A stretch of 63,525 bases of DNA. Source: Pseudomonadota bacterium (GTDB lineage: Bacteria; Pseudomonadota; Gammaproteobacteria; Burkholderiales; Sulfuricellaceae). Positions 2,905 to 14,432 of this stretch are shown here, piece after piece. The notes under the pieces were generated by a model. That model saw nothing but the letters and a program-made list of their open reading frames with translations. It had not been told where the DNA came from and made no database searches. How positions within the stretch are numbered: the stretch's first letter is position 1; every line of letters starts with the position of its first letter. Where the stretch lies: positions 1 to 63,525 of the forward strand of contig JAJYXP010000033.1 of NCBI GenBank assembly GCA_021801705.1. Direction: 5' to 3'. The position numbers and the translations under genes are program-made.

Positions 2905-4449
2905 TTACAACTGCTCCACTATTTCAGTCCCGCCGAGGTCATTGGCAATCTCCCGGAACTGTTCCAGCGCCGCCTCCAGGTCTTCGACAATCTCCGCGGC
3001 GATCACCTCCGGCGCAGGCAGGTTATCGGAATCCGACAGCGATTCGTCCCTGAGCCAGAAAATATCCAGGCTGGCCTTGTCGCGGTTGGCGATCTCCTCG
3101 TAGTCGTAGGCGCGCCAGCGGCCGTCGGGGTTTTGTTCCGACCAGGTAGGCTGACGGTTGAATCGGCCCGAGGGCGAGCCTCCTACTGTAGGAGCGGCGC
3201 CCTCGCCGCGATTGCTTTCCGAATAACACGCCACGAACTCGTCCAGATCCTCCCGCTTCAGTGGATTGGTCTTGAGCGTAAAGTGGATGTTGGTGCGCAG
3301 GTCGTAGATCCACAGCTTCCGGGTCCACGGGGTTTCGGAAGCGGGCTTCTTGTCGAAGAACAGCACGTTCGCCTTCACGCCCTGGGCGTAGAACAGGCCG
3401 GTGGGCAGGCGCAGCAGGGTATGGACGTCGCACTCGTGCAGCAGCTTGCGGCGGATGGTTTCGCCCGCACCGCCTTCGAACAGCACGTTGTCCGGCACCA
3501 CCAGGGCGGCGCGGCCGTTCTGCCTGAGCAGGGTTTTCACATGCTGGACGAAATTGAGCTGCTTGTTCGAGGTGGTGGCCCAGAAGTCGTCGCGCTCGAC
3601 GATGTCGCGCTCCTTGCTGACCTTGCCTTCCTCGCCGACGATGGTGGTGCTGCTCTTCTTGCCGAAGGGCGGGTTGGTCAGCACCAGGTCGAAGCGATCG
3701 CCGGGGTCGGCGGCGAGGGAATCAGACACCGCAATCGGCTCGAATTCCTGGCTGCCGATGCCGTGCAACAGCATGTTCATGGCGCACAGCCGGGCGGTAG
3801 CCTGCACCAGCTCCCAGCCCTTGAAGCTTTCCCCCCGGAGTTTCTTCTTCTCCGCTGTAGTCATGTTGGGGTTGTGCTTCACCACATAGTCGTGGGCCGC
3901 CAGCAGAAAGCCTCCGGTGCCGCAGGCCGGGTCGGAAATGGTCTCGCCGGGCTTGGGGGCCATGGCATCCACAATCGCCTGGATCAGCGGGCGCGGCGTG
4001 AAATACTGGCCCGCGCCGGACTTGGTGTCCTGGGCGTTCTTCTCCAGCAGGCCCTCGTAGGCGTCGCCCTTCACGTCAGCGCTCATCGACACCCAGGTTT
4101 CCTTGTCGATCAGGTCCACGATCAGCCGCCGCAGCTTGGCCGGGTCCTGGAACTTGTTCTGCGACTTGTTGAAGATCAGGCCGAGCAAGCCTTTCTGCTT
4201 GCCCAGTTCCTCCAGCGTGTGGCGGTAGTGGTCGAACAGTTCGTCACCATCCTTCTTCACCAGACTAGGCCAGTCATAGCCGGCAAGTACCGGGCTGGCC
4301 TGGTTGTAGGGCGGTTTGCTGCGCTCATCGGCCATCTTGAGAAACAGCAGATAGGTGAGCTGCTCGACGTAGTCGCCATAGCTCATGCCGTCGTCGCGCA
4401 GCACGTTGCAGTAGTTCCAGAGTTTTTGAACGATGGTTGCGGTGTTCAT
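2905..4449 (-). CDS. hsdM: Type I restriction-modification system, methylase subunit HsdM
   Basis: A 514-residue N6-adenine DNA methyltransferase subunit that acts with HsdS and HsdR. The N-terminal helical domain (about 5-130) is followed by TPRPLI (151-156), the SAM-binding motif DPACGTGG (173-180) and the catalytic NPPF (259-262). Near the C-terminus, after DEFVACYSESN, about 20 residues (GEGAAPTVGGSPSGR) are encoded by a REP-like palindrome (3187-3214) and are absent from the HsdM sequences I recall. The start overlaps the end of the nucleotidyltransferase frame by 4 bases (ATGA), so it is translated as the last gene of a three-gene unit. It lies over 6 kb from hsdR. Confidence 0.95.
   Translation of the reverse strand: MNTATIVQKLWNYCNVLRDDGMSYGDYVEQLTYLLFLKMADERSKPPYNQASPVLAGYDWPSLVKKDGDELFDHYRHTLEELGKQKGLLGLIFNKSQNKFQDPAKLRRLIVDLIDKETWVSMSADVKGDAYEGLLEKNAQDTKSGAGQYFTPRPLIQAIVDAMAPKPGETISDPACGTGGFLLAAHDYVVKHNPNMTTAEKKKLRGESFKGWELVQATARLCAMNMLLHGIGSQEFEPIAVSDSLAADPGDRFDLVLTNPPFGKKSSTTIVGEEGKVSKERDIVERDDFWATTSNKQLNFVQHVKTLLRQNGRAALVVPDNVLFEGGAGETIRRKLLHECDVHTLLRLPTGLFYAQGVKANVLFFDKKPASETPWTRKLWIYDLRTNIHFTLKTNPLKREDLDEFVACYSESNRGEGAAPTVGGSPSGRFNRQPTWSEQNPDGRWRAYDYEEIANRDKASLDIFWLRDESLSDSDNLPAPEVIAAEIVEDLEAALEQFREIANDLGGTEIVEQL
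3187..3214 (+). repeat. REP-like palindrome inside hsdM (TGTAGGAGCGGC type)
   Basis: The sequence begins TGTAGGAGCGGC and ends CGCGATTG, with a GCGGCG...CGCCGC self-complementary core. It is the form of a widely dispersed proteobacterial extragenic palindrome. Here it is in frame within hsdM, and a second copy in opposite orientation lies in hsdR (12438-12463). Confidence 0.65.
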
Positions 4450-5154
4450 TTCGTATCCAGGGCTGTGATTAAATTTATCTGTTCGCGAACGCGGCGAATC
4501 CTGTCCTCGTATAACTCGTCATACACCACCAGACCCGGCAGCGTGTTCTCAAAATTGGGATCGCGGACAATCTCCGCGAAGCGGGAAGCCAAATAATCCG
4601 CAAGCTCGCCGCCGGCATCAGCCACTTCCGCCTCAATGCCGGGTCGCCCGTCGATCACATTGATGATGTCCTCGAAATCATGACTGGACATCAGGTCGCT
4701 CTGCCCACGGGTGCCAAAAGCCTCCAGCTTCGTCGCCAGAAAGGCCGGAGCCGAAATCAAACGAATCTGCCTGCCGCTCGGCAACAAGACACGCGATGCA
4801 CTCGCGATTGCCAACGGATACCAGCGATTGGCAAAACCCAGTACGCGTTCATCAGTCGGCATTAAATCAACTTCCACCTCACCGAGCCGCCAGCGACAAA
4901 TCGGCGCATCTGGCGAAACATCCCGGGCAAAGCCGCGAGACGCAAACCGCTTCTCCAGTGCATGATAGGCCGCAAGCGCCGCCACTTCGGCCACCACATC
5001 CACGTCATAAGTCAACGCGGGGCGGCGGAGCATTGGGCGACGTACACAACAGCCCCGCAGCGCAACCGCCCACGAATACCAGCTCATCGCACAACTCGCC
5101 CAGCGCCTGCGCCACTACCTCCACCAACTGGACATTGGGATCACGTGGATTCAA
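4446..5154 (-). pseudogene. Frameshifted nucleotidyltransferase (AbiEii-like), partner of the winged-helix gene
   Basis: The frame 4446-5087 resembles the larger part of a nucleotidyltransferase: TYDVDVV with the Asp pair of the active site, then APICRWRLGEVEVDLMPTDE, LGFANRWYPLA and LATKLEAFGTRG. Its first ~20 residues fit nothing. In another frame, upstream to a TTG at 5154 that overlaps the previous gene's stop, the missing start is present: NPRDPNVQLVEVVAQALGE and the GG motif VFVGGCAAGLL. One extra base near 5010-5028 (next to a CCGCCGCCCCGC run) separates GG from DVD. Either the gene is inactivated or the assembly has a one-base error. AbiEii relatives are toxins of abortive-infection TA pairs; that role here is inference. 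Confidence 0.7.
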
Positions 5155-5684
5155 AACCGCTCCTCGAACAGTTTCTCGGCAAGGTTGCGCTCGCGCGCAT
5201 TGCCCATGCGCAAGGCATCGAACAAGGCCAGGTTCTCATACAGCGCCGGGCTGCGCAGCGCCGCCGCCGGAGCACTCGGGTAAAGCGGTATCAGCGCAAT
5301 GCCCCGCGCCTTGCCCTCAGCATGCGGCCACACCGGCGATGGATCAGCCGAAGGTGCGATCAAGGCGTTGAGGGGAGCAGCAGCATAGGCTGTGGGAACA
5401 CCGCCCACCATCCCGCCCCTTGCCGCCGGAAAAGCGTAGCGGGCACCGTGAAACAAAAACTCCTTGAATGCCGGAACAATGATGCGCGGCTGCTTATCCA
5501 CAAACGCCAGCAGGCGAGCCTGCTCTGCCCGCTTCAATGCACCATGCACCTCCGACATAGACAAACCGGCAAAAGCCGCCAGCTCGGGATACGTCAATAC
5601 CTCGCCGCGCCTGGCGAGAAGCGCCAGCAGCAGGTACAAGTCCTGAGCCTTGAGAGCGGGTTGGCGGTTAACAGGGCGGCGCAT
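5151..5684 (-). CDS. Winged helix-turn-helix protein, putative antitoxin or regulator of the NTase-hsdM unit
   Basis: A 177-residue protein. Residues ~12-60 (KAQDLYLLLALLARRGE, TYPELAAFAGLSMSEVHGALKRAEQARLL) form a winged-helix DNA-binding domain; the rest (LFHGARYAFPAARGGMVGG...) has no motif I recognise but is of a conserved type found next to this kind of nucleotidyltransferase. It starts the operon wHTH-NTase-hsdM with TTGA and ATGA overlaps. A promoter (5726-5754) and two TTCGCGAA palindromes lie directly upstream, so autoregulation is likely. Reading it as the antitoxin of an AbiE-like pair is inference. Confidence 0.6.
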   Translation of the reverse strand: MRRPVNRQPALKAQDLYLLLALLARRGEVLTYPELAAFAGLSMSEVHGALKRAEQARLLAFVDKQPRIIVPAFKEFLFHGARYAFPAARGGMVGGVPTAYAAAPLNALIAPSADPSPVWPHAEGKARGIALIPLYPSAPAAALRSPALYENLALFDALRMGNARERNLAEKLFEERF

Positions 5685-5704
5685 GGGTTGGCTCCATTAA
5701 GAAG

Positions 5705-5728
5705 TTTCGTGTTTCGCGAAATACGAAA
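5705..5728. promoter_or_regulatory. 24-base palindromic operator, proximal copy
   Basis: TTTCGT (5705-5710), the perfect palindrome TTTCGCGAAA (5712-5721) and ACGAAA (5723-5728) form a 24-base near-perfect dyad with one mismatched pair. It begins 21 bases upstream of the wHTH start codon and overlaps the -10 region, the expected place for a repressor site. Confidence 0.65.
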
Positions 5729-5754
5729 ATACTATGTATTCAATCGGATTGCAA
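5726..5754 (-). promoter_or_regulatory. Promoter of the wHTH-NTase-hsdM operon
   Basis: On the minus strand TTGCAA (5754-5749) and TATTTT (5731-5726) are 17 bases apart. The -10 touches the proximal TTCGCGAA dyad. Both boxes are only moderate matches to sigma-70, so this is a prediction from spacing and position. Confidence 0.45.
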
Positions 5755-5813
5755 CATGCATCGAGCCTCATGATTGTCGGCATATGCAATATGCAAACAG
5801 CGTATTGTGCTGC

Positions 5814-5837
5814 ATTCGCTATTCGCGAATAGCGAAT
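5814..5837. promoter_or_regulatory. 24-base perfect palindrome, distal copy
   Basis: ATTCGCT, ATTCGCGAAT and AGCGAAT join to a perfect 24-base dyad. It shares the TTCGCGAA core and the size of the proximal copy; the two centres are 109 bases apart. This could be a second operator allowing DNA looping, or a site serving both flanking units. Confidence 0.6.
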
Positions 5838-5933
5838 GTGCAACACGTCCTGCCAAACTCACAATGCTGGTGTTCCCGCGTTGAGAACGATTACACCCGT
5901 TATGGAAACGAACAATATCTACAAACAACCCAG

Positions 5934-6440
5934 CTACAAGCGCGCCACCACCTCAAGCATCGCCTTGTCCGGCCAGACCAGTTTCTCGTAAATCGTCGCG
6001 GGCCGGTGGCTAAGTTCGCAGGACACAACAACCGGGTCCAAATCCATCACATTGGGGACGCGCATGATCCACGCTTCCAAGTCCTGCCGTGCAATGCGCA
6101 AAGAACCCTGCACCGAACGGTCGGTGGCCGTGTCGTAACGAATCGGCCCGATGGCCAGTTCCGCTTTCTTGATCTGCGCAGTCGGGCTGCCGAAAGCTGC
6201 GAGCGTGGCAATGTACAACTGACGAAACCGCGTGCTCCCCAGCTCCGCGAAGTGCTCCTTGCGCAGACCGGGGAGAAACAGCGTGTAGCGCGTCGCATCA
6301 TGGCAAAACATCACGCACTGGCGCCGATCGACGGTAAACAAATGCGCATGCCAACTGCCAAGCGGGCTGGTTTCTTCAAGCGGCCCGGGCGAAACATCGG
6401 CCAGTTTGGCAGCGAGTTTTTTGGAGCAGTGGATGATCAT
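5934..6440 (-). CDS. Conserved hypothetical protein, DUF6933-like
   Basis: A 168-residue protein of the type starting MIIHCSKKLAAKL, with the conserved stretches LGSWHAHLFTVDRRQCVMF, HDATRYTLFLPGLRK, TDRSVQGSLRIARQDLE and VPNVMDLDP. I recognise this as the DUF6933 family, whose function is unknown to me. There is no signal peptide or membrane segment. It sits 56 bases downstream of the PD-(D/E)XK gene and upstream of the palindrome-rich 5685-5933 interval, so it could end the phd-relE-hsdS operon. Its ribosome site is weak. Confidence 0.65.
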   Translation of the reverse strand: MIIHCSKKLAAKLADVSPGPLEETSPLGSWHAHLFTVDRRQCVMFCHDATRYTLFLPGLRKEHFAELGSTRFRQLYIATLAAFGSPTAQIKKAELAIGPIRYDTATDRSVQGSLRIARQDLEAWIMRVPNVMDLDPVVVSCELSHRPATIYEKLVWPDKAMLEVVARL

Positions 6441-6496
6441 GCGGCGTTATGTGGCGGGCTTATGCACGATTCATGATATGGACAGAGCACGGCTGC

Positions 6497-7921
6497 TTAT
6501 TGATCACGGCCGCGTTCTGGAAAGCGAAGCTGACCCATTTGGTTCGGGATGAGTCTCTTCGCATCTTGAAACAACTTGTCGGCATTCAGTGGCAGGCTGA
6601 CCTGATTAAGCATCCCCTCTATATCTTCCTTACAAACCACTGCAATATCATGTTTGCCTGCGGTTTCCAGATTTGCAGTGACTTCCTCGCGCGAGAGCGG
6701 CGACACAATCATGGACTGAAGCTGAAGGAATCCGTAACCGGCGTGGTCTAGTTTGTCCCTAATCAACTTCGAGCGCTGCACCAACTTAGCAAGCTTGTCG
6801 TTTCTGTCAAGAAGCCCGATCGTGCACTCGACAACTACAACGTGGCCAGATGGTGCTACCACAATAATGTCTGGCCCCTCCTGAAGCTTTGGGGCGCGCC
6901 CATAGTTGGTAACCGAGAAACCTAATAGGCTAAGCAAGGTAGAAACAGCACTCTCGAACATTTGTGATTTATCAGTTTCCGGTTTAAACAACATCTTCCT
7001 CAACGACTCCATGTCATCATCAAAAACCTGATGGATGGCGTGACGTGGGTTTAAACGCTTCTGTGGGTCAGCAACCCACCATTGATGGTGCGCAACACCT
7101 GCATAACTTAAGAATGCCTGGAGCAAAGAGGCATCCCCAACTGGCATGCGCCACGTGCCGACATTAATGTCACCTTTTTGCCGCCACTTCAGCTTAGAGC
7201 CACTGACACTTCCCCGATCTACAGAGTCTTTGTGGAGAATTTTGTACCCAAGTCGCAGTTTCTCAACATCCAAGCCTGCGGCGAGATGGCACTCAATCAC
7301 CACTCTCCTTCCCTTGATCGTGGACGCCCCAGAGATCATTGTTGGCGCCCTAGCCACGATCTCCAACGTGGTTGAATCACCCATCTGATTTAGTGCCGGC
7401 AGCCCACATTGACCAAGCAATTCATCAAGGTTGTCAAACGGCGTTTCGGCGGATTTCAGCTCCCAATCCAGATGTCGGGAATCTGCAACGTTCACAAGCA
7501 GATTGTGCCTAGAAGTGCCACGTACCAACAGACTTGGTAACCGTGGCCCTTCTGTAACGAAAGGATGGTAAATCGGCGCTAAATATGTCGACGGGTCCCC
7601 ATCACTCTGCAGAGCAATGGTCGTTGAGCCATCAATGCATTGCATTTCCCCGTTTCTTGCGAAAGTGAGAAACGAGTCAACGTCGGCAAGTGTAGCATTG
7701 GTAGCAAAGCGCGCCGCCACTAAATGGTCAGTTTCGAACTTGAAAGCTGTGTCGCTAACCCCAGCGCGGGTTGGCTCCAAAAAAACGCGGCCAAACAACA
7801 GGCGGGGGCCTTGGGGCGTTTTCAGCCCCACATAGGAAACGACGGCGCGTTGATATGCGCCAGCCCACAGCCGAAGCAGGTTTTCGAAGTTGAAGAAGTC
7901 CTTTTCCTGGGGGCTGTTCAT
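6497..7921 (-). CDS. PD-(D/E)XK nuclease-like protein coupled to hsdS
   Basis: A 474-residue protein whose first ~310 residues I do not recognise. From ~320 a nuclease-like fold is visible: E323 (MFESAVSTLLSLLGF), D351 (QEGPDIIVVA) and E365 (VVVVECTIG), the spacing of Mrr-type PD-(D/E)XK nucleases. The usual final Lys is Thr here (E-C-T), a variant seen in some family members. The start overlaps hsdS by 4 bases (ATGA), so it is translated with the specificity subunit. It may be an extra effector or an accessory protein of the type I complex; nothing in the sequence proves either. An alternative is an unrelated cargo gene. Confidence 0.6.
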   Translation of the reverse strand: MNSPQEKDFFNFENLLRLWAGAYQRAVVSYVGLKTPQGPRLLFGRVFLEPTRAGVSDTAFKFETDHLVAARFATNATLADVDSFLTFARNGEMQCIDGSTTIALQSDGDPSTYLAPIYHPFVTEGPRLPSLLVRGTSRHNLLVNVADSRHLDWELKSAETPFDNLDELLGQCGLPALNQMGDSTTLEIVARAPTMISGASTIKGRRVVIECHLAAGLDVEKLRLGYKILHKDSVDRGSVSGSKLKWRQKGDINVGTWRMPVGDASLLQAFLSYAGVAHHQWWVADPQKRLNPRHAIHQVFDDDMESLRKMLFKPETDKSQMFESAVSTLLSLLGFSVTNYGRAPKLQEGPDIIVVAPSGHVVVVECTIGLLDRNDKLAKLVQRSKLIRDKLDHAGYGFLQLQSMIVSPLSREEVTANLETAGKHDIAVVCKEDIEGMLNQVSLPLNADKLFQDAKRLIPNQMGQLRFPERGRDQ

Positions 7922-9432
7922 ATGCGCTCAACCATTTTGTTCGAAAATGCAGTCTTCAAGATCGATTGGCGCAGGCGATCGGCACGCTGGAGATTGGCAT
8001 CAACCTGGTCTTCGGCTTCATCGGCGAGGGAGAGGCGGCGTTCAACTTCGGCGATGACGGCCTCCTGTTCCCTGATAGGCGGTAGCGCTACAGGCAAAGC
8101 CAGCAACTGCTCCGTGTTAATGCCGTCGCGGGTCGCGCCATGATTGACCTCGCGAACATAGTCACGAACATATTTAGCGCCCCTTACGTAGTAAACGAAA
8201 TACCTTGGTTCTGTCACGTTGTTTGCGAGTCGAAGCCGCATGAGGTGGTAGTTGAATAAAGCCCCCTCAAAAATTGCCGTTACAAATCCAGCCCGGCCAA
8301 CTGAGGCCATTCTCGAAAACAGCATGTCACCCTGCTTGAGCTTGTAACGATCTAGCTCTTCAGCCTTTCCCTCGGACACATAGACTGCCTTATCAAGGGA
8401 TAAGCCTTCTTCCCGCAAGCAACCAATAGTGAGCACGGGGACACCTGTATCTTGGAAGTCGGCCCGACCGATATTGGAGCCAAAAGGCCCCGTCATAACT
8501 GCTTGCTCACCGATTGCACCCAACTGTTCAACGCTCGCCCATACCCACCCCTCCGGCAATTCAGGCAGGCTGGTGGTGTCCGGGGCGGCGGGTTCGGGGT
8601 ATTTCTTTTTCCAAGTGTCGTCCTTGGGGGGTTTGTCCTTGGCCTGCATCTTGGCGAGTTCAGCTTGCTCCCACCGGCTGCGACGTTCGGCGAGGATGCG
8701 ATGGAGGAGTTCGCTGCCGGCTTCGGTGTCGGGGTGTTGTTTGCGCCAGGCCTCGGTGAGCTTGCCTTCGACGGCGGCTTTGAGGACGGCGGCTTTGTAG
8801 CGCTTGAGGTTGGCCTTGACGCGCTTGAGGTTGGCGACGGCTTCTTCGAGGCGGGAGAATTGTTTTTCGATTTCCGCGACGATGAGTTTTTGTTGGTCGA
8901 GGGGGGCGGCCGGAAAAGGGTAAGGCGCCAACTGCTCGAAATCTACGCGTGGTCGATCACCTGCATTGAGGTGGGATGCATATGAAACAAACGCCGACGA
9001 ATTGAGGAAGTACTGGAGGTACCGGGTATCAAGGTCATCTGCCTTTGGGAATACGATGAATTCAGCCGAGCAAAGTCCCTCGAATTCCGGGCGATAGACT
9101 TTGTTCAGATAGGGCCTAAGACGGCCATACAGGACATCACCTGGCTGGAAGTGCACCGCCGAACTTTTCATGGTTGATGCAGGCACTGTTCCCAAGAGCC
9201 GCATCGTATGTGCCTCGATGTGCTCCATCCCGATGAAAGGAAGATGGGGTTTGTCTGATGGTTTAACCCGAGGCCGAGTCGGCTTCACAACTTCGCCAAG
9301 TGGCCGAAGAGATGTAGTTCGCGCTTGGTGGGTTACGGCCTGCGGCCTAACCCACCCTACATTTTCTGCGTCGGGGATCGCAAGGTAATCCGCGCGCTTT
9401 TCTTTGGCCTTCATGCCGCTCTTCATGTTCAC
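7918..9432 (-). CDS. hsdS: Type I restriction-modification system, specificity subunit HsdS
   Basis: A 504-residue DNA-recognition subunit with two target-recognition halves. The first (~45-180) ends with PYPFPAAPLDQQKLIVAEIE, the second (~290-450) with PVALPPIREQEAVIAEVERR; each is followed by the conserved coiled-coil spacer (EAVANLKRVKANLKRYKAAVLKA and a similar C-terminal helix). Translation starts at GTG 9432, overlapping the toxin stop (GTGA). Near the N-terminus, WVRPQAVTHQA comes from a palindromic repeat (9325-9361) inserted in frame. It is the third gene of phd-relE-hsdS-nuclease, an unusual place for hsdS. Confidence 0.93.
   Translation of the reverse strand: MNMKSGMKAKEKRADYLAIPDAENVGWVRPQAVTHQARTTSLRPLGEVVKPTRPRVKPSDKPHLPFIGMEHIEAHTMRLLGTVPASTMKSSAVHFQPGDVLYGRLRPYLNKVYRPEFEGLCSAEFIVFPKADDLDTRYLQYFLNSSAFVSYASHLNAGDRPRVDFEQLAPYPFPAAPLDQQKLIVAEIEKQFSRLEEAVANLKRVKANLKRYKAAVLKAAVEGKLTEAWRKQHPDTEAGSELLHRILAERRSRWEQAELAKMQAKDKPPKDDTWKKKYPEPAAPDTTSLPELPEGWVWASVEQLGAIGEQAVMTGPFGSNIGRADFQDTGVPVLTIGCLREEGLSLDKAVYVSEGKAEELDRYKLKQGDMLFSRMASVGRAGFVTAIFEGALFNYHLMRLRLANNVTEPRYFVYYVRGAKYVRDYVREVNHGATRDGINTEQLLALPVALPPIREQEAVIAEVERRLSLADEAEDQVDANLQRADRLRQSILKTAFSNKMVERI
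9325..9361 (+). repeat. REP-like palindrome inside hsdS (GGTGGGTTA type)
   Basis: GGTGGGTTA and TAACCCACC enclose a GGCC-TGC-GGCC core, giving a nearly perfect hairpin. The same pattern is a common dispersed repeat between genes in gamma- and betaproteobacteria. Here it is in frame and contributes about 12 residues before the first recognition domain of HsdS. Confidence 0.65.
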
Positions 9433-9707
9433 CCGTACACCTCGTCATGGCTGCCGATGTCGATCAGAAGGATTTCGTGCTCCGTGATTTGCAGCGTCAG
9501 GGTGATGCGGTAGCTGTAGGTGAGGCTGACGGCCTGCATGCCCTGAAGTTTGCCGGTCAGGGGGTGCAAGCGCAGGCTAGGTTCGAAGGGGTCGGCGCGC
9601 AATTGCTCCATGGTTTCCATGAAGCGGGGCCGGAGGTCGGGGTGCTTGGTCAGGAATTTGCGGACACGGCGGTCGAAGAAGGCCGTGGTGGTCAGGGTCC
9701 AGCTCAT
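9429..9707 (-). CDS. RelE/YafQ-type mRNA interferase toxin
   Basis: A 92-residue toxin of the RelE/ParE superfamily. Typical features are the N-terminal FFDRRVRKFLTKHPDL helix, DPFEPSLRLHPLTGKLQGMQAVSLTYSYRITL and the ending ILLIDIGSHDEVYG. The H-P-L-x-G-K-L segment and the terminal H-D-E-V-Y place it nearest the YafQ/RelE ribosome-dependent mRNA endonucleases rather than ParE gyrase toxins. It overlaps its antitoxin by 4 bases (ATGA) and hsdS by 4 bases (GTGA). Confidence 0.85.
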   Translation of the reverse strand: MSWTLTTTAFFDRRVRKFLTKHPDLRPRFMETMEQLRADPFEPSLRLHPLTGKLQGMQAVSLTYSYRITLTLQITEHEILLIDIGSHDEVYG

Positions 9708-9976
9708 GCCGCCGGTTCACTGTCCAGGTGCTGCATCAGGGCTTCGACGCTATTGTGGCGGGTAACGCGCCCGGCCTTGGCATCTTCCAGCGAGGACTTG
9801 ATGCGGGCGAGGGCGGCTTCTTCCTGGGCTTCGAGCAGTTCGCTGTAGCGCTCTTCGGTCAGCACCACGTATTGCGGGCGGTTGTTCTTGATGATGTGCA
9901 CCGGGCCTTGAGCCAGGGCTTCATCCACGGCGGCGATGCCGCGGCGCTTGATTTCCTGGGCGGGGATGATGTTCAT
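9704..9976 (-). CDS. Phd/YefM-family antitoxin
   Basis: A 90-residue prevent-host-death antitoxin. The N-terminal DNA-binding half reads MNIIPAQEIKRRGIAAVDE, followed by HIIKNNRPQYVVLTEERYSELLEA, the classic Phd core. The acidic C-terminal part (SLEDAKAGRVTRHN...) should wrap the toxin. AGGAGATA precedes the start. A perfect 18-base palindrome (9993-10010) sits just upstream and is the likely operator, so Phd control would extend to hsdS and the nuclease-like gene downstream. Confidence 0.88.
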   Translation of the reverse strand: MNIIPAQEIKRRGIAAVDEALAQGPVHIIKNNRPQYVVLTEERYSELLEAQEEAALARIKSSLEDAKAGRVTRHNSVEALMQHLDSEPAA

Positions 9977-9992
9977 GTTTATCTCCTGTACC

Positions 9993-10010
9993 TTAATAAG
10001 TACTTATTAA
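9993..10010. promoter_or_regulatory. 18-base palindromic operator of the phd-relE-hsdS unit
   Basis: TTAATAAGTACTTATTAA is a perfect palindrome 17 bases upstream of the Phd start codon. Phd-type antitoxins bind such dyads and repress their own promoter. The minus-strand segment TTTAAT overlapping it could be the -10 box. Confidence 0.7.
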
Positions 10011-10071
10011 AGCACTGTATCCTGCATCAATCAAGCCACCAAGCCCTGCTTGGGTTGCCCAGTGTCGGAGC

Positions 10072-10157
10072 TGTCATTTCGACCGGAGGGAGAAATCCTG
10101 TTTGTATATTCCGCTTCCTGGAAAGCATCAAGATTTCTCCCTCCGGTCGAAATGACA
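10072..10157. repeat. Pair of 26-base inverted repeats (TGTCATTTCGACC type)
   Basis: The 26 bases at 10072-10097 (starting TGTCATTTCGACCGGAGGG) are exactly the reverse complement of 10132-10157, with 34 bases between. The right arm encodes the last residues of the GIY-YIG protein. A third copy with two differences lies at 10463-10488 and a truncated one at about 10494-10509, so the nuclease gene is bracketed by the repeat. Confidence 0.85.
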
Positions 10158-10460
10158 GGGGAGGATGCCCAAGTCTTCGCTGAGGTCGCGCCATTCCGGG
10201 TTGGCATGGATGACCAATGCATCTTTCTTTTCCCGCCGCCATTTCTTGATTTCCTTCTCGCGGGCAATTGCGGCATGCACGTCGGGGGTTTCCTCGAAAT
10301 ATACCAATCTGTTCACGTTGTATTTTTCCGTGAAGCCTTTCACAGCTTTGGTCTTGTGTTCGTACACGCGGCGCGCAAGGTTGTTGGTCACGCCGACATA
10401 CATAACTTTGTCGTTCCAGTTGGTGAGGAGGTAGATGAAATAATGGTGCTCTCTCGTCAT
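10128..10460 (-). CDS. GIY-YIG nuclease domain protein
   Basis: A 110-residue single-domain GIY-YIG protein of the UvrC/homing-endonuclease superfamily. The first motif is FIYLLTN (8-14), the second MYVGVTNNLARR (20-31) with the catalytic Arg region, then E34-H35 and the later KYNVNRLVYFEET and AREKEIKKW segments. The last ~10 residues (CHFDRREKS) are encoded by the TGTCATTTCGACC repeat itself. It lies between hsdR and the Phd/RelE genes, on the same strand. Family members of this size occur widely as solitary genes of unknown role; here an association with the flanking repeat is visible. Confidence 0.85.
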   Translation of the reverse strand: MTREHHYFIYLLTNWNDKVMYVGVTNNLARRVYEHKTKAVKGFTEKYNVNRLVYFEETPDVHAAIAREKEIKKWRREKKDALVIHANPEWRDLSEDLGILPCHFDRREKS

Positions 10461-10462
10461 TG

Positions 10463-10509
10463 GATTTCTCCCTTTGGTCGAAATGACAGGGGAGACGGTC
10501 GAAATGACA
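10463..10509 (-). repeat. Third and partial fourth copies of the TGTCATTTCGACC repeat
   Basis: GATTTCTCCC...GGTCGAAATGACA at 10463-10488 matches the 26-base arms with two differences (TTT for TCC in the middle). A shortened copy, GACGGTCGAAATGACA, follows at about 10494-10509. Both lie just before the GIY-YIG start and just after the hsdR stop. Confidence 0.75.
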
Positions 10510-10515
10510 GGGTGT

Positions 10516-13374
10516 TCATGCCGCCAAACTCTCGTTCAATTGTTCGATGAGGGTGCTCAGCTCATCGCCGAAGAGCTGATACACCTTGCCCAATCCGCCT
10601 TCCTGGGCGAAAGGCGCGTATTCGAAGTCGTCCGGTGCTATGCCGAGGTTGGCGGCGATGTGGTCGCGGATCATTTCGAGCCATTTGAGTTGTTCGGGGG
10701 TGAAGCGCTCCCCCTCTCCCCGGCCCTCTCCCACGAGGGGAGAGGGAGTTTTCTGTTGGGTAGCCAGCCAGGCCTTGAAGTTGGCGTTGACCCGCTCGGG
10801 GAACGGCACGAGTTCGTTGTCCTGGTGGATGGCGAAGCGCACCAGGGAAACCAGGTCGGTGAGGATGCGGCGGCCGCTGGCGCCTTTGACTTTGCTGGAT
10901 TCCAAGGCGGCGTAAGCCTGCCAGAGCTGGGATTCGTTCCACAGGTAGGGCGGCTTTTCGATGGCGTCGGCGAGTTCCTTCACCGCCTCGAAGGTGAGGC
11001 GCTGTTTGTAGGGTTTGCTGTAGAGAATTTGCAGGGCGGTGATTTCGTCTTTGTGATCGGCGATGAATTTTTCAAACGACTGCACCAGGCCTTTGGCGCG
11101 GTCGAGGGCGGCTTGGCTGAAGCCGGCTTCGATGACCTGGTCCTGGCTGACGTGGTCGATGGTGAGTTCGTTTTTGGCTTTGATGTCGAGGATGAGCTGG
11201 CGCAGGGCAGGGTCGCAGAGGGGTTTGGATGCGTTAATCCGCGCTTGTTGCGCAGTTGCATTAAACCCACCCCCACCCTCGCCCTCCCCCTGAAGGGGAG
11301 GGGATAGATTTTGGGCAGAGGGAGCAAAGCGGTCAGGGTCCAGTGATTCGACGAGTTGGTGGGCGAGGTCTTTCAGGCCGAGGCCGCCGCTTGCGGCGCG
11401 AATCCTGGCGTCGTCCTCGGCGCTGATGCGGTGTTCCATTCTTGCCAGGCGGCCGGCGATGCTGGTGATGACGTCGTCTTCGGTGTTGCCGAAGGCGACG
11501 GCTTGCAGGAGGCGCTCGAAGCTGACGCTGGGCTTTTTCTCCATGGGGCGGGCATCGGTTTTGTCCTGCTCGCACACGCCGACGGCGTCGATGATGACGA
11601 AGTGGTCCTTGGCCTTGGCGTCGGGGGTGACGGCCCTGAGGTCGTCTGGCTTGATGACGCGCACGCCGCGGCCTTTCATCTGCTCGAAGAAGCCGCGGGA
11701 TTTGACAGCGCGCATGAAAAAGACGATTTCCACCGGCTTGATGTCGGTGCCGGTGGCGATCATATCCACAGTGACGACGACCCTTGGGTGGTAGCTGTTG
11801 CGGAAGGCCTTGATGAGGTTCTGCGGGGTATCGCCGGTGGTGCGGTAGGTGATCTTCTGGGCGAATTCGTTGCCCTTGCCGAATTCCTCGCGCAGGATTT
11901 CGACGATGTTTTCGGCGTGGTTGTCGTCCTTGGCGAAGATCAGGGTCTTGGGCACTTCGCTGCGGCCGGGGAAGATTTCGCTGAAGAGCTTGTCGCGGAA
12001 GGTGCGCACGATGGTGCGGATCTGGTCCGGGGTGACGACGTCGCGGTCGAGCTGGTTGGGGTCGTAGGCGAAGTCGTCGTCAAGTTCCTCCCAGCGGGTC
12101 TTGCGGGTGTCGCGTTCCTGCTTTTCCACGTAATAGCCGGCTTCGACCTTGGAGCCGCCCTCGGTGATGGCAGTCTTGATGCGGTAGACGTCGTAGTTGA
12201 CGTTGACGCCGTCGGCCACGGCCATTTCGTGGTTGTATTCCATCACCAGGTTCTGGTGGAAGAAGCCGAAGGTCTGCTTGCCGGGCGTGGCGGTGAGGCC
12301 GATGAGGTAGGCGTCGAAGTACTCCAGCACCTGGGCCCAGAGGTTGTAGATGGAGCGGTGGGCCTCGTCGGTGACGATGATGTCGAAGGTTTCGATGGGA
12401 ATGGCCGGGTTGTATTCGATGGGCTCGGGCGCAGCGGCAATCGCGGCCAAGGCTGCTCCTACGGAAACCTCTTCCAGGTCTGCCGGCAGGTCGCGGCCCT
12501 TGAGCATGGAGTACAGGCGCTGGATGGTGCAGATGCAGACGCGGGCGGTGGTGTCGATCTGGTTGCCCTGCAGGCGCTGGACGATGTATTCCTCGCTGAA
12601 CTTGAAGTTGTTGTAGGGCGAGACGTATTGCTGGAATTCCTTGAGAGTCTGGTCGGCCAGGTTGCCGCGGTCGACCAGGAACAGGATGCGCCGCGCCCCG
12701 GCGAACTTGATCAGCCGGTAGATGGCGCTGATGGAGGTGAAAGTCTTGCCAGAACCGGTGGCCATCTGGATCAGGGCGCGCGGGCGGTTCTCTTTCAGCG
12801 ATTGTTCGAGATTGCGGATCGCCTTGATCTGCGCGGGCCACAGGCCTTCTTCCTTCAGCGGCGGCATGGATTGCAAGCGGGCGAGGAAGGTGGAGGCGGG
12901 CTGGTGTGCGGAACGATCTCCCTCTCCCCCGGCCCCTGTCCCGCTTGCGGGAGAGGGGAGATAGGCGAGCCATTCGGCCAGCAGTTCGGGAGTGTGGAAG
13001 GCGAACACAGGCCGGGAACGCGGTGCAGGGTCAAGCCCGTTGGTGAAGCGGGTCTCGACGCCGGTAGACTGGTATGAAAAGGGAAGGGGACTGCTCCACC
13101 TTGGCAAGGCTTGTGGCAGGCCTTTTATGTATTTATCAGACTGGGTTTCAACGCCGGTAAGTGTGACACCTTCCTTTTTGGCTTCAATTACACCGGCAGC
13201 CTTACCATCTACATATAGAAGGTAATCCGCAAAACCATAGCCCGGAAGGGGAAACTCGCGAATCGCCACGCCATGGCTGGCGTGGATATTCGCCTGGGAA
13301 GCATCGCAGACATGCCAACCCGCAGCTTTTAGAAGGCGGTCGATGTGCTCCCTGGCAGCAGATTCAGGCGTCAT
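10516..13374 (-). CDS. hsdR: Type I restriction-modification system, restriction subunit HsdR
   Basis: A 952-residue translocase-nuclease that cuts unmethylated DNA with HsdM and HsdS. The N-terminal nuclease site is D50 with E64-x-K66 (FADYLLYVDGK, VIEAKK). The SF2 motor has Walker A MATGSGKT (204-211) and DEAH (336-339), followed by LIGLTATPGK. Four segments look foreign to the family and coincide with dispersed palindromes: residues ~138-155 (SPASGTGAGGEG), ~305-318 (GAALAAIAAAP), one reading LSPPLQGEGEGGGG, and one reading PSPLVGEGRGEGE. All keep the frame, so the protein may still work. It is the first hsd gene in transcription order and stands apart from hsdS and hsdM. Confidence 0.94.
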   Translation of the reverse strand: MTPESAAREHIDRLLKAAGWHVCDASQANIHASHGVAIREFPLPGYGFADYLLYVDGKAAGVIEAKKEGVTLTGVETQSDKYIKGLPQALPRWSSPLPFSYQSTGVETRFTNGLDPAPRSRPVFAFHTPELLAEWLAYLPSPASGTGAGGEGDRSAHQPASTFLARLQSMPPLKEEGLWPAQIKAIRNLEQSLKENRPRALIQMATGSGKTFTSISAIYRLIKFAGARRILFLVDRGNLADQTLKEFQQYVSPYNNFKFSEEYIVQRLQGNQIDTTARVCICTIQRLYSMLKGRDLPADLEEVSVGAALAAIAAAPEPIEYNPAIPIETFDIIVTDEAHRSIYNLWAQVLEYFDAYLIGLTATPGKQTFGFFHQNLVMEYNHEMAVADGVNVNYDVYRIKTAITEGGSKVEAGYYVEKQERDTRKTRWEELDDDFAYDPNQLDRDVVTPDQIRTIVRTFRDKLFSEIFPGRSEVPKTLIFAKDDNHAENIVEILREEFGKGNEFAQKITYRTTGDTPQNLIKAFRNSYHPRVVVTVDMIATGTDIKPVEIVFFMRAVKSRGFFEQMKGRGVRVIKPDDLRAVTPDAKAKDHFVIIDAVGVCEQDKTDARPMEKKPSVSFERLLQAVAFGNTEDDVITSIAGRLARMEHRISAEDDARIRAASGGLGLKDLAHQLVESLDPDRFAPSAQNLSPPLQGEGEGGGGFNATAQQARINASKPLCDPALRQLILDIKAKNELTIDHVSQDQVIEAGFSQAALDRAKGLVQSFEKFIADHKDEITALQILYSKPYKQRLTFEAVKELADAIEKPPYLWNESQLWQAYAALESSKVKGASGRRILTDLVSLVRFAIHQDNELVPFPERVNANFKAWLATQQKTPSPLVGEGRGEGERFTPEQLKWLEMIRDHIAANLGIAPDDFEYAPFAQEGGLGKVYQLFGDELSTLIEQLNESLAA
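10708..10748 (+). repeat. In-frame GC-rich palindrome in hsdR, copy 1
   Basis: CCCTCTCCC and GGGGAGAGGG flank a short CACGA loop, preceded by CCCCTCTCCCCGG. This is the well-known dispersed palindrome that reads as GEGRGEG or SPLPLGE-type peptides. It sits in frame in the 3' third of hsdR. Confidence 0.7.
11266..11304 (+). repeat. In-frame GC-rich palindrome in hsdR, copy 2
   Basis: CCCACCCCCACCCTCGCCC is followed by CTCCCC-CTGAA-GGGGAG, the same repeat type as the copy at 10708-10748. It encodes LSPPLQGEGEGGGG within HsdR. Confidence 0.7.
12438..12463 (-). repeat. TGTAGGAGCGGC-type palindrome in hsdR
   Basis: On the plus strand CAATCGCGGCC-AA-GGCTGCTCCTACG, the reverse orientation of the element found in hsdM (3187-3214). 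It encodes the Ala-rich GAALAAIAAA segment just before the DEAH region of HsdR. Confidence 0.65.
12915..12962 (+). repeat. In-frame GC-rich palindrome in hsdR, copy 3
   Basis: CCCTCTCCCCCGGCCCC is followed by a CCCGC-TTGC-GGGAGAGGGGAG hairpin. It encodes LPSPASGTGAGGEGD between the nuclease and motor domains of HsdR. Confidence 0.7.
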
Positions 13375-13778: not shown

Positions 13779-14432
13779 TTATTTTTTCCCGTCATCAGCC
13801 ATCAGCAAATCAGCGATATCGGTATTTCCACTGTCCATGGCCCAGTTTATCGCCGTAGCGCCACCTTCATTCTTGACCTTTACATCAGCGTGAAACTCAA
13901 GAAGCACTTTTACAACCTCGATGTGCCCGCCTTTCGACGCCAACATTAATGCAGTTGTGCTATTGCTTGTCACTGCGTTTACATCTGCACCGTGATGCAA
14001 TAGTTGTTTGACAATGTCGCTATGGCCAGAAAATGCCGCATACATGACGGGCGTCCACCCCTGATTATTTCCGGCCACATCGGCTTTCAGCCTGAGCAAG
14101 GTGTTCACGACTTGATCGTGCCCCTTCAGCGCCGCAAGCATGATGGCCGTTTCGCCGAATTGGTTTCTGGCATTTAGTTTTGCGCCGGATTTGTAAAGCA
14201 GCCGCAATATATCGTCCTGCCCTTCACGGGCGGCGATCATTAAAGCGGTGTTGCCGTTGCCATCCATAATATTGGCATCCACCCCCTTGGCGAGCAGATT
14301 TTGAATCTCGCCAGTATTGCCAATGTTTATCGCCGTGAAAAAATCGTCAATGTATTCAGTCGCGAATGCAGCTTTGTTGATGTTAATTAAAATCAACAAT
14401 AAAAATATGCTATATCTTGTTTTAAATGACAT
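13779..14432 (-). CDS. Exported ankyrin-repeat protein
   Basis: A 217-residue protein with a signal peptide (MSFKTRYSIFLLLILININKAAFA) and then about six ankyrin repeats (residues ~30-210), each with the G-x-T-x-L/I-M-x-A-A and V-V-x-x-L-L pattern. It is predicted to be periplasmic, with a protein-binding role whose partner is unknown. Its start overlaps the tatD stop by 11 bases, so it ends the long minus-strand housekeeping operon. Related ankyrin genes often follow catalase or transport genes elsewhere; that does not apply here. Confidence 0.85.
   Translation of the reverse strand: MSFKTRYSIFLLLILININKAAFATEYIDDFFTAINIGNTGEIQNLLAKGVDANIMDGNGNTALMIAAREGQDDILRLLYKSGAKLNARNQFGETAIMLAALKGHDQVVNTLLRLKADVAGNNQGWTPVMYAAFSGHSDIVKQLLHHGADVNAVTSNSTTALMLASKGGHIEVVKVLLEFHADVKVKNEGGATAINWAMDSGNTDIADLLMADDGKK

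Follow-up and report, generated by a model that had tools for sequence, protein, structure and literature searches.

How does a type I restriction-modification operon come to have its three subunit genes separated by toxin-antitoxin, nuclease-like and other genes? The question is raised by positions 2905-13374 of a 63,525-nucleotide stretch, contig JAJYXP010000033.1 of assembly GCA_021801705.1, from a Pseudomonadota bacterium of the Sulfuricellaceae; we refer to the whole stretch as the window. The initial annotation proposed an undescribed composite defence system, with the specificity gene hsdS tied to a Phd/RelE pair and the methylase gene hsdM tied to an AbiE-like pair. Comparison with related loci points to another answer. 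The locus probably belongs to a clade of type I operons with the order hsdR-hsdS-hsdM and two variable cargo slots, in which loading is anchored in the adjoining subunit genes and a four-base overlap into hsdS is usually kept.

We collected relatives by a genome scan anchored on HsdM, which returned at least 595 stretches, at least 565 of them encoding a relative. From these we retained the 80 best-matching loci, at 75-91% identity, which together with three further loci and the window form a set of 84, designated here by L numbers (genomes by G numbers). Both hsdS and hsdM could be placed in 57 of the 84 loci, and all three hsd genes in 52 (51 besides the window). hsdS remained unplaced in 27, several of which are short contigs. 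Slot A denotes the interval between hsdR and hsdS, counted as occupied from 150 bp, and slot B the interval between hsdS and hsdM, for which a gap of at least 600 bp was required. The starts of hsdS and the open reading frames (ORFs) in the slots were assigned mechanically.

Nearly all relatives had slot B filled, and many had slot A filled too, by genes that differ between loci and lie mostly on the sense strand. The gap between hsdS and hsdM reached 600 bp in 56 of 57 loci, with a range of 0.6-6 kb and a median of 2486 bp, and slot A was filled in 21 of the 52 loci with all three genes placed. Sense ORFs made up 161 of 171 in slot B when the selection preferred that strand, and 140 of 168 when it did not. 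Only L086 has a plain operon among the 57; its hsdS is short (331 aa) and both four-base overlaps are present. Two more distant loci, L191 and L192 (HsdM 58-60%), likewise have an hsdS-hsdM gap. Split hsd genes are therefore the norm in this HsdM clade, where the premise of the initial annotation that hsdR, hsdM and hsdS are usually adjacent fails; the plain hsdRSM operons in relatives that it had named as evidence against its own proposal were confined to L086.

The relatives share the order hsdR-cargo-hsdS-cargo-hsdM and differ in what the slots contain. We scanned 140 sense ORFs of at least 100 aa from slot B of the 80 HsdM loci (two of them being hsdM pieces) against Pfam and PADLOC. The commonest Pfam families were Fic, AAA_15, AAA_21, AbiEii, SMC_N and GmrSD_N, and the counts included Fic 8, AAA_15 6, AbiEii 6, GmrSD_N 5, WYL 4, DUF6933 3, HipA_2 2 and SIR2_2 2, among others. 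The same ORFs matched 660 PADLOC families; many of the 25 listed are ATPase models, so that 660 is not a count of defence genes. Cargo can differ between close relatives: L117 and L128 carry different slot-B ORFs, yet their hsdR genes are 92% and their hsdM genes 97% identical. Because relatives fill the same slots with other, often defence-like genes, the particular combination in the window seems to be one exchangeable set of genes and not a single new machine.

The window locus comprises ten genes, all on the minus strand, in the following order of transcription (database matches in brackets).

13374-10516, minus strand: hsdR, type I restriction/translocation subunit, 952 aa, first gene (Pfam EcoEI_R_C 1e-43, ResIII 7e-38, HSDR_N 1e-7; PADLOC REase_I)
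10460-10128, minus strand: GIY-YIG domain protein, 110 aa, slot A (Pfam GIY-YIG 2e-17)
9976-9704, minus strand: Phd/YefM-like antitoxin, 90 aa, slot A (Pfam PhdYeFM_antitox 1.7e-6, 28.1 bits against a cut-off of 29.8)
9707-9429, minus strand: RelE/YafQ-like toxin, 92 aa, slot A (Pfam YafQ_toxin 1.5e-5, 25.6 bits against a cut-off of 30; NCBIfam RelE_StbE 1e-5, below cut-off)
9432-7918, minus strand: hsdS, specificity subunit, 504 aa, GTG start (Pfam Methylase_S in two stretches, 2.6e-13; PADLOC Specificity_I 7e-90)
7921-6497, minus strand: 474-aa orphan protein, slot B (conserved residues; without a Pfam or NCBIfam family)
6440-5934, minus strand: DUF6933 protein, 168 aa, slot B, PADLOC candidate PDC-S63 (Pfam 6e-40; PADLOC 9e-48)
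5684-5151, minus strand: winged helix-turn-helix (wHTH) protein, slot B, PADLOC candidate PDC-M21A (PADLOC 4e-36; Pfam AbiEi_4 only 0.09)
5154-4446, minus strand: nucleotidyltransferase region PDC-M21B, slot B, frame broken near 5007 (PADLOC 1.5e-52 on the ORF at 5087-4446)
4449-2905, minus strand: hsdM, adenine methyltransferase subunit, 514 aa, last gene (Pfam N6_Mtase 1e-71, HsdM_N 4e-12; PADLOC MTase_I 6e-202)

By gene content, this is a type I restriction-modification operon with a complete gene set: HsdR with translocase and N-terminal nuclease domains, the N6-methyltransferase HsdM, and HsdS with two specificity stretches. Apart from the 474-aa gene, each of the ten has a match in Pfam or PADLOC, which for phd and relE falls just below the Pfam cut-offs. 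The ORF coordinates bear out the gene order and junctions first described, namely four-base overlaps at phd/relE, relE/hsdS and hsdS/474-aa gene, TTGA at the wHTH/nucleotidyltransferase start and ATGA at the nucleotidyltransferase end with hsdM. The order and overlap of phd and relE fit a type II toxin-antitoxin pair, with both partners scoring below curated cut-offs.

Across the relatives, coupling was closest at the entry into hsdS. In 28 of 30 loci without slot-A cargo (31 lack cargo, one being uncounted), the hsdR stop lies four bases inside hsdS, and in 16 of the 21 loci with cargo some upstream frame ends at the same place. This frame is relE in the window, L133 and L145; a piece of hsdR in ten loci (L070, L077, L080, L091, L093, L096, L097, L115, L118 and L051, with no start codon giving 25 aa found in the last two); and a frame other than either in L072, L081 and L131. 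In five cargo loci (L085, L099, L110, L116 and L137), no frame ended four bases inside the mechanically assigned hsdS start. At the exit, hsdS overlaps the next gene by four bases in 15 of 54 loci, against 0 to 3 at seven other offsets. The last cargo ORF overlaps hsdM by four bases in 12 of 56, at least six of them without a PDC-M21 pair, and ends within 30 bp of hsdM in 33 of 56. The entry into hsdS is thus far tighter than the other junctions, making the overlap above all a property of the hsdS junction. Since it is kept with or without cargo, it looks like inherited operon coupling rather than a toxin-antitoxin device.

The slots also contain pieces of the adjoining subunit genes. Pieces of hsdR, all C-terminal, occur in slot A of 11 of the 21 cargo-bearing loci, that is, in the ten named above and in L116; L139, outside the 57, has one as well. 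A further piece in L072, found only in a C-terminal-directed search, is doubtful: the main hsdR there stops near residue 639, and the piece may therefore be the displaced end of a broken gene. In L070 (positions 4285-5061), three tandem copies of the hsdR C-terminus, 252 bases apart, form one open frame ending four bases inside hsdS. N-terminal hsdM pieces lie upstream of an intact hsdM in 20 of the 84 loci, 15 of them among the 57, and all fall within residues 1-164 (compiled by hand). A further short match in L114 was left out of this count, as were pieces downstream of hsdM in L084, L090, L114 and L140, the last two of which are N-terminal. Read by hand, 13 of the 20 frames holding hsdM pieces stop no more than about 40 bp from a following start, including second pieces in L115 and L126 that end four bases inside hsdM; 5 of the 20 lack a start codon at the first aligned position. 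When each locus was searched freely with its own proteins, no hsdS pieces were found, and 468 other ORFs of at least 250 aa, used as a control, gave 34 duplicate matches.

Two explanations of these scars were discarded. A single exchange of an hsdS cassette producing both kinds was rejected, as they co-occur in 4 of 52 loci, about as by chance from 12 and 15 of 52, and show no sign of one common event. For the idea that the hsdM pieces are remnants of a window-like allele, identities did not discriminate.

Blocks of DNA shared between two loci and extending at least 200 bp to either side of a junction crossed the slot B-hsdM border in 17 pairs, the hsdR-slot A border in 5 and the slot A-hsdS border in 1. 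No such block ran from hsdS into slot B under this rule, and one (L104/L127) appeared with a smaller threshold. We propose that incoming DNA anchors through homology in hsdR or hsdM and that its other end joins illegitimately near the hsdS-facing end of the same gene, which would explain both the hsdR 3' and the hsdM 5' pieces. Selection would then keep a frame that delivers ribosomes to hsdS, a role that a leftover hsdR piece could serve and that relE would serve in the window. The cargo would act as a second, growth-arresting or DNA-cutting layer co-expressed with the restriction enzyme; where it includes a toxin-antitoxin pair, loss of the locus may also become difficult. At about 8764-8915 in the window hsdS, some 150 bases are 88-98% DNA-identical in about half of the matching loci and 74-87% in the rest, a possible crossover point for the exchange of recognition domains.

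Several observations weigh against this account. The loci are the best 80 matches to one HsdM and not a sample of type I systems. Among 34 loci (561 pairs), hsdR identity correlates with hsdM identity (r = 0.74). This indicates that the two outer genes mostly share their descent, which argues against free swapping of subunit-plus-cargo units. The missing hsdS-slot B blocks are partly expected because hsdS recognition domains vary. As for the scars, the window itself has none, and the downstream hsdM pieces of L084 and L090 are middle to C-terminal. The first count of hsdR pieces came from a C-terminal-only search, the free search being separate. hsdM pieces cannot be assigned to donor or resident because HsdM 5' ends are conserved. 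The 34 control duplicates look mostly like paralogues or antisense shadows of hsdM pieces, although a few resemble end fragments.

The individual gene pairs of the window recur in other genomes. Between hsdR and hsdS, phd-relE was found in L077 (Sulfuriferula), L133 and L145 (Nitrospirae), that is, in two phyla; L139 carries the pair downstream of hsdR, with no hsdS in view. The relE/hsdS overlap of four bases is repeated in L133 and L145, and an hsdR piece intervenes in L077; the Phd relatives of L077 and L139 are 94-96% identical. In L101 (positions 3263-3799), a phd-relE pair directly follows hsdM rather than preceding hsdS. A wHTH-nucleotidyltransferase pair stands directly before hsdM in 7 of the 80 HsdM loci (L072, L078, with the nucleotidyltransferase partly in view, L079, L116, L117, L132 and L134) and also in L050, L051 and L189. 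DUF6933 precedes the pair in L072 and L051, the same place as in the window. L193, from the same family as the window genome, has after the end of hsdS the 5' part of hsdM, then DUF6933, then hsdM without its 5' part, perhaps an insertion into hsdM that left the gene broken.

The nucleotidyltransferase of the window is itself broken. Its frame from 5154 hits a stop near 5007, and the remaining similarity continues in another frame (the ORF at 5087-4446), either through a lesion or through a sequence error; the open frame expected of a PDC-M21 copy is thus lacking, and of the wHTH-nucleotidyltransferase-hsdM unit first described the overlaps hold and an intact nucleotidyltransferase does not. 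Decay is seen elsewhere too, L072 being in two frames, L123 having an internal gap and L080 keeping about 60 residues; intact relatives exist. One of these, from L117, was modelled with three sequences at a predicted local distance difference test score (pLDDT) of 84.8, and its fold matched MenT1 (8an5, E-value 2e-5) and, more weakly, ANT(2'') and TglT. Pfam AbiEii did not match the window ORF and reached 0.02, below cut-off, on the L117 protein. In L117 a wHTH gene precedes the nucleotidyltransferase gene, resembling MenAT/AbiE systems; the below-cut-off AbiEii score there and the broken window copy differ from them. For the family, the predicted fold supports a toxin role of the AbiE/MenAT type; it does not speak for activity of the broken copy in the window. 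In the window too, the wHTH gene lies directly before the nucleotidyltransferase gene, both matching PDC-M21 models, and an AbiEi-like role may be inferred for its product.

In slot A, the 19-base motif CCCTYYGGTCGAAATGACA has three copies genome-wide (at most one mismatch), all at 10072-10488 around the GIY-YIG gene, at or beside both its ends. GIY-YIG relatives 76-80% identical follow hsdR in L070, L080 and L139, where the 13-base core of the motif also lies near them, and L115 has a weak one. The gene and its repeats appear as if they were a small mobile unit.

The 474-aa protein following hsdS has no family in Pfam or NCBIfam, and its PADLOC match is weak (0.003). We tentatively take E323, D351, E365-C-T and K376/K379 to be a variant of the C-terminal Mrr/PD-(D/E)XK-like motif. 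The F-E, D, E-C-T and K positions are common to the rows that reach the C-terminal part of the alignment. The earlier PD(D/E)XK label stands on motifs and not on a Pfam family. A single-sequence model (pLDDT 33.6) was useless for the fold and was not used. Besides the window, relatives were found in 1 of 369 genomes of the class, 2 of 398 of the phylum and 6 of 399 of the order (G397 in the last two), with a weak match in G1014. When the families of two of the hits were searched further, only those same hits came back, and no relatives were found in viral contigs, plasmids or phages.

Adjacency to hsdS recurs in another type I family, whose HsdM is 28-31% like that of the window. L227 has the order hsdR-hsdM-hsdS-474 relative, the relative starting one base after the hsdS stop, and L224 has AbiEii-hsdR-hsdM-hsdS-474 relative (broken), the relative starting one base inside the hsdS stop. 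L223 has the order hsdS piece-Fic-hsdR-474 relative (broken), which puts the relative next to hsdR, and in L225 the relative lies beside a NACHT protein and an Mrr_cat-like protein (below cut-off). No type I genes were seen near the relatives of L069, L222 and L226 in the stretches read, all of which are short or at a contig end. In L224 (positions 7396-7662, genome G1110), the middle of the relative aligns in the reverse orientation, as though that part of the gene had been flipped. An invertible segment was considered, but the inverted repeats around it are all weak or short. From the recurrent adjacency we would guess that the 474-aa protein acts with HsdS.

These comparisons leave little room for a designed composite with Phd-RelE as guard of hsdS and the AbiE-like pair as guard of hsdM, where loss of either subunit gene frees a toxin or antitoxin control sets the M:S balance. 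Such a design would fit the four-base overlaps at phd/relE/hsdS and nucleotidyltransferase/hsdM and their recurrence in L133, L145 and seven of the 80 HsdM loci, and to this extent hsdS is found with Phd/RelE, and hsdM with an AbiE-like pair, beyond the window. Many other cargos fill the same slots, however, and the search for the same order that the initial annotation had recommended found single pairs and never both. The combination of phd-relE-hsdS with wHTH-nucleotidyltransferase-hsdM was absent from all 51 other loci with three hsd genes placed, a part of the operon being out of view or not found in the other 32 of the 84. The same overlaps join non-toxin neighbors, and four-base couplings occur without any toxin-antitoxin pair, which leaves operator control of M:S without standing as a conserved design feature. 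Toxin release upon gene loss is no conserved feature either, given couplings without such a pair and a nucleotidyltransferase broken beside an intact hsdM in the window (and decayed in L072, L123 and L080). A composite requiring all its parts is not supported and we regard it as very improbable; an addiction effect of the embedded toxin-antitoxin pair is possible. Slightly less improbable, though still unlikely, is the view of the hsdR and hsdM pieces as functional small proteins rather than scars. The close spacing of 13 of the 20 hsdM-piece frames to the following start and the ten hsdR-piece stops four bases inside hsdS would suit this; against it, the hsdM pieces span about 15 to 164 residues, each kind is missing from most loci, and L070 carries three hsdR pieces in tandem.

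Two further explanations concern what the cargo does, and to each we give a limited chance. The cargo might detect that a phage has inhibited the restriction enzyme and respond with arrest of the cell, as does PrrC, described in the consulted part of PMC12707154 as an anticodon nuclease in the EcoprrI locus that responds to inhibition of the enzyme. The likeness lies in an accessory toxic gene inside a type I locus, which for the window is predicted from its genes. The Fic, AAA_15, AbiEii and HipA-like families in slot B and the hsdS-474 adjacency in a different type I family agree with such a role; Pfam, PADLOC and NCBIfam scans named no PrrC-like family among the ten window proteins, and cargo families also occur away from hsdM. 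PDC-M21B matched in 41 of 369 genomes of the class, and 23 of 28 PDC-M21 regions read, several of them short, had no HsdM similarity at an E-value of 1e-3. Alternatively, and with a similarly small share of our confidence, the operon could be a passive defence island, a tolerated landing site for cargo without a functional link to it. The great variety of cargo, the decayed frames and the 474 relatives without type I genes in the stretch read (L069, L222, L225 and L226) are in keeping with this. The sense bias that persists without strand preference, the close spacing to hsdM and the overlap into hsdS kept in most cargo loci speak against it; taken together, they suggest that co-expression is selected.

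Genes embedded in type I loci have precedents. In the section consulted, PMC5183652, citing Miller et al. 2005, presents intervening rlo and mlo genes as a distinct feature of Campylobacter jejuni hsd loci, so the cargo-slot architecture is known; by description the layout is the same as in the window clade, and that section mentions neither subunit scars nor the hsdS overlap. The part consulted of PMC12255303 describes DarTG2 inside an Escherichia coli type I system at a potential recombination hotspot and cites Payne 2024 on embedded defences. As in the window, a toxin-antitoxin pair lies inside a type I operon; DarTG2 differs in its place, between hsdS and hsdR, and in having a repressor of its own, RptR, whereas the window has phd-relE between hsdR and hsdS. 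The window wHTH, nucleotidyltransferase and DUF6933 proteins match models of the PADLOC candidates PDC-M21 and PDC-S63, and our literature search found no paper using the term PDC-M21. Nor did the literature searched, preprints not covered, yield a description of subunit scars or of the hsdS overlap. The window operon is thus a variant of a known cargo-bearing hsd architecture. Less expected are the scars, the hsdS overlap and the 474-aa relatives that follow hsdS in a different type I family.

The surroundings of the locus were compared with those in congeners. Among 11 congeners, the best full-length HsdM match was 60% (G371); in G377, pieces of a similar locus occur at two contig ends. Integration of an island at the tRNA-Leu (2731-2819) next to the locus was considered as a possibility, but no copy of the tRNA 3' end turned up at the other edge among the 20 repeat families inspected of at least 60. 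In the stretches read, nine congeners have TatD-ankyrin with neither restriction-modification genes nor tRNA-Leu. Ankyrin-repeat-like proteins flank the locus at 1072-1641 and 13779-14432, the second being kept beside TatD in congeners. Beside tRNA-Leu, two ORFs at 1811-2472 with a one-base overlap resemble a CcdA/CcdB pair by eye, and had no match in nine congener stretches and two others.

Joined together, these elements suggest a broader picture that we put forward tentatively, rating it somewhat below an even chance: a renewable defence cassette around hsdS. New defence genes may enter on either side of hsdS by homology-anchored joining into the adjacent subunit gene. hsdS may be expressed only via an overlapping upstream frame, with hsdR pieces or relE kept as ribosome-delivery leaders, and successive hsdM pieces may record the order of past insertions. 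The 474-aa protein may found a family of HsdS-linked nucleases common to unrelated type I systems.

In place of a one-off composite, the comparison offers a testable rule for loading defence genes into a restriction operon, under which the subunit order is fixed, cargo enters two slots, scars come from the ends of hsdR and hsdM that face hsdS, and the four-base overlap into hsdS persists. The hsdS-linked 474-aa family is a concrete unknown that it brings into view. If the rule is true, the order of cargo gains could be read from the subunit pieces, and the slots of this clade would supply a ready list of candidate defence genes.

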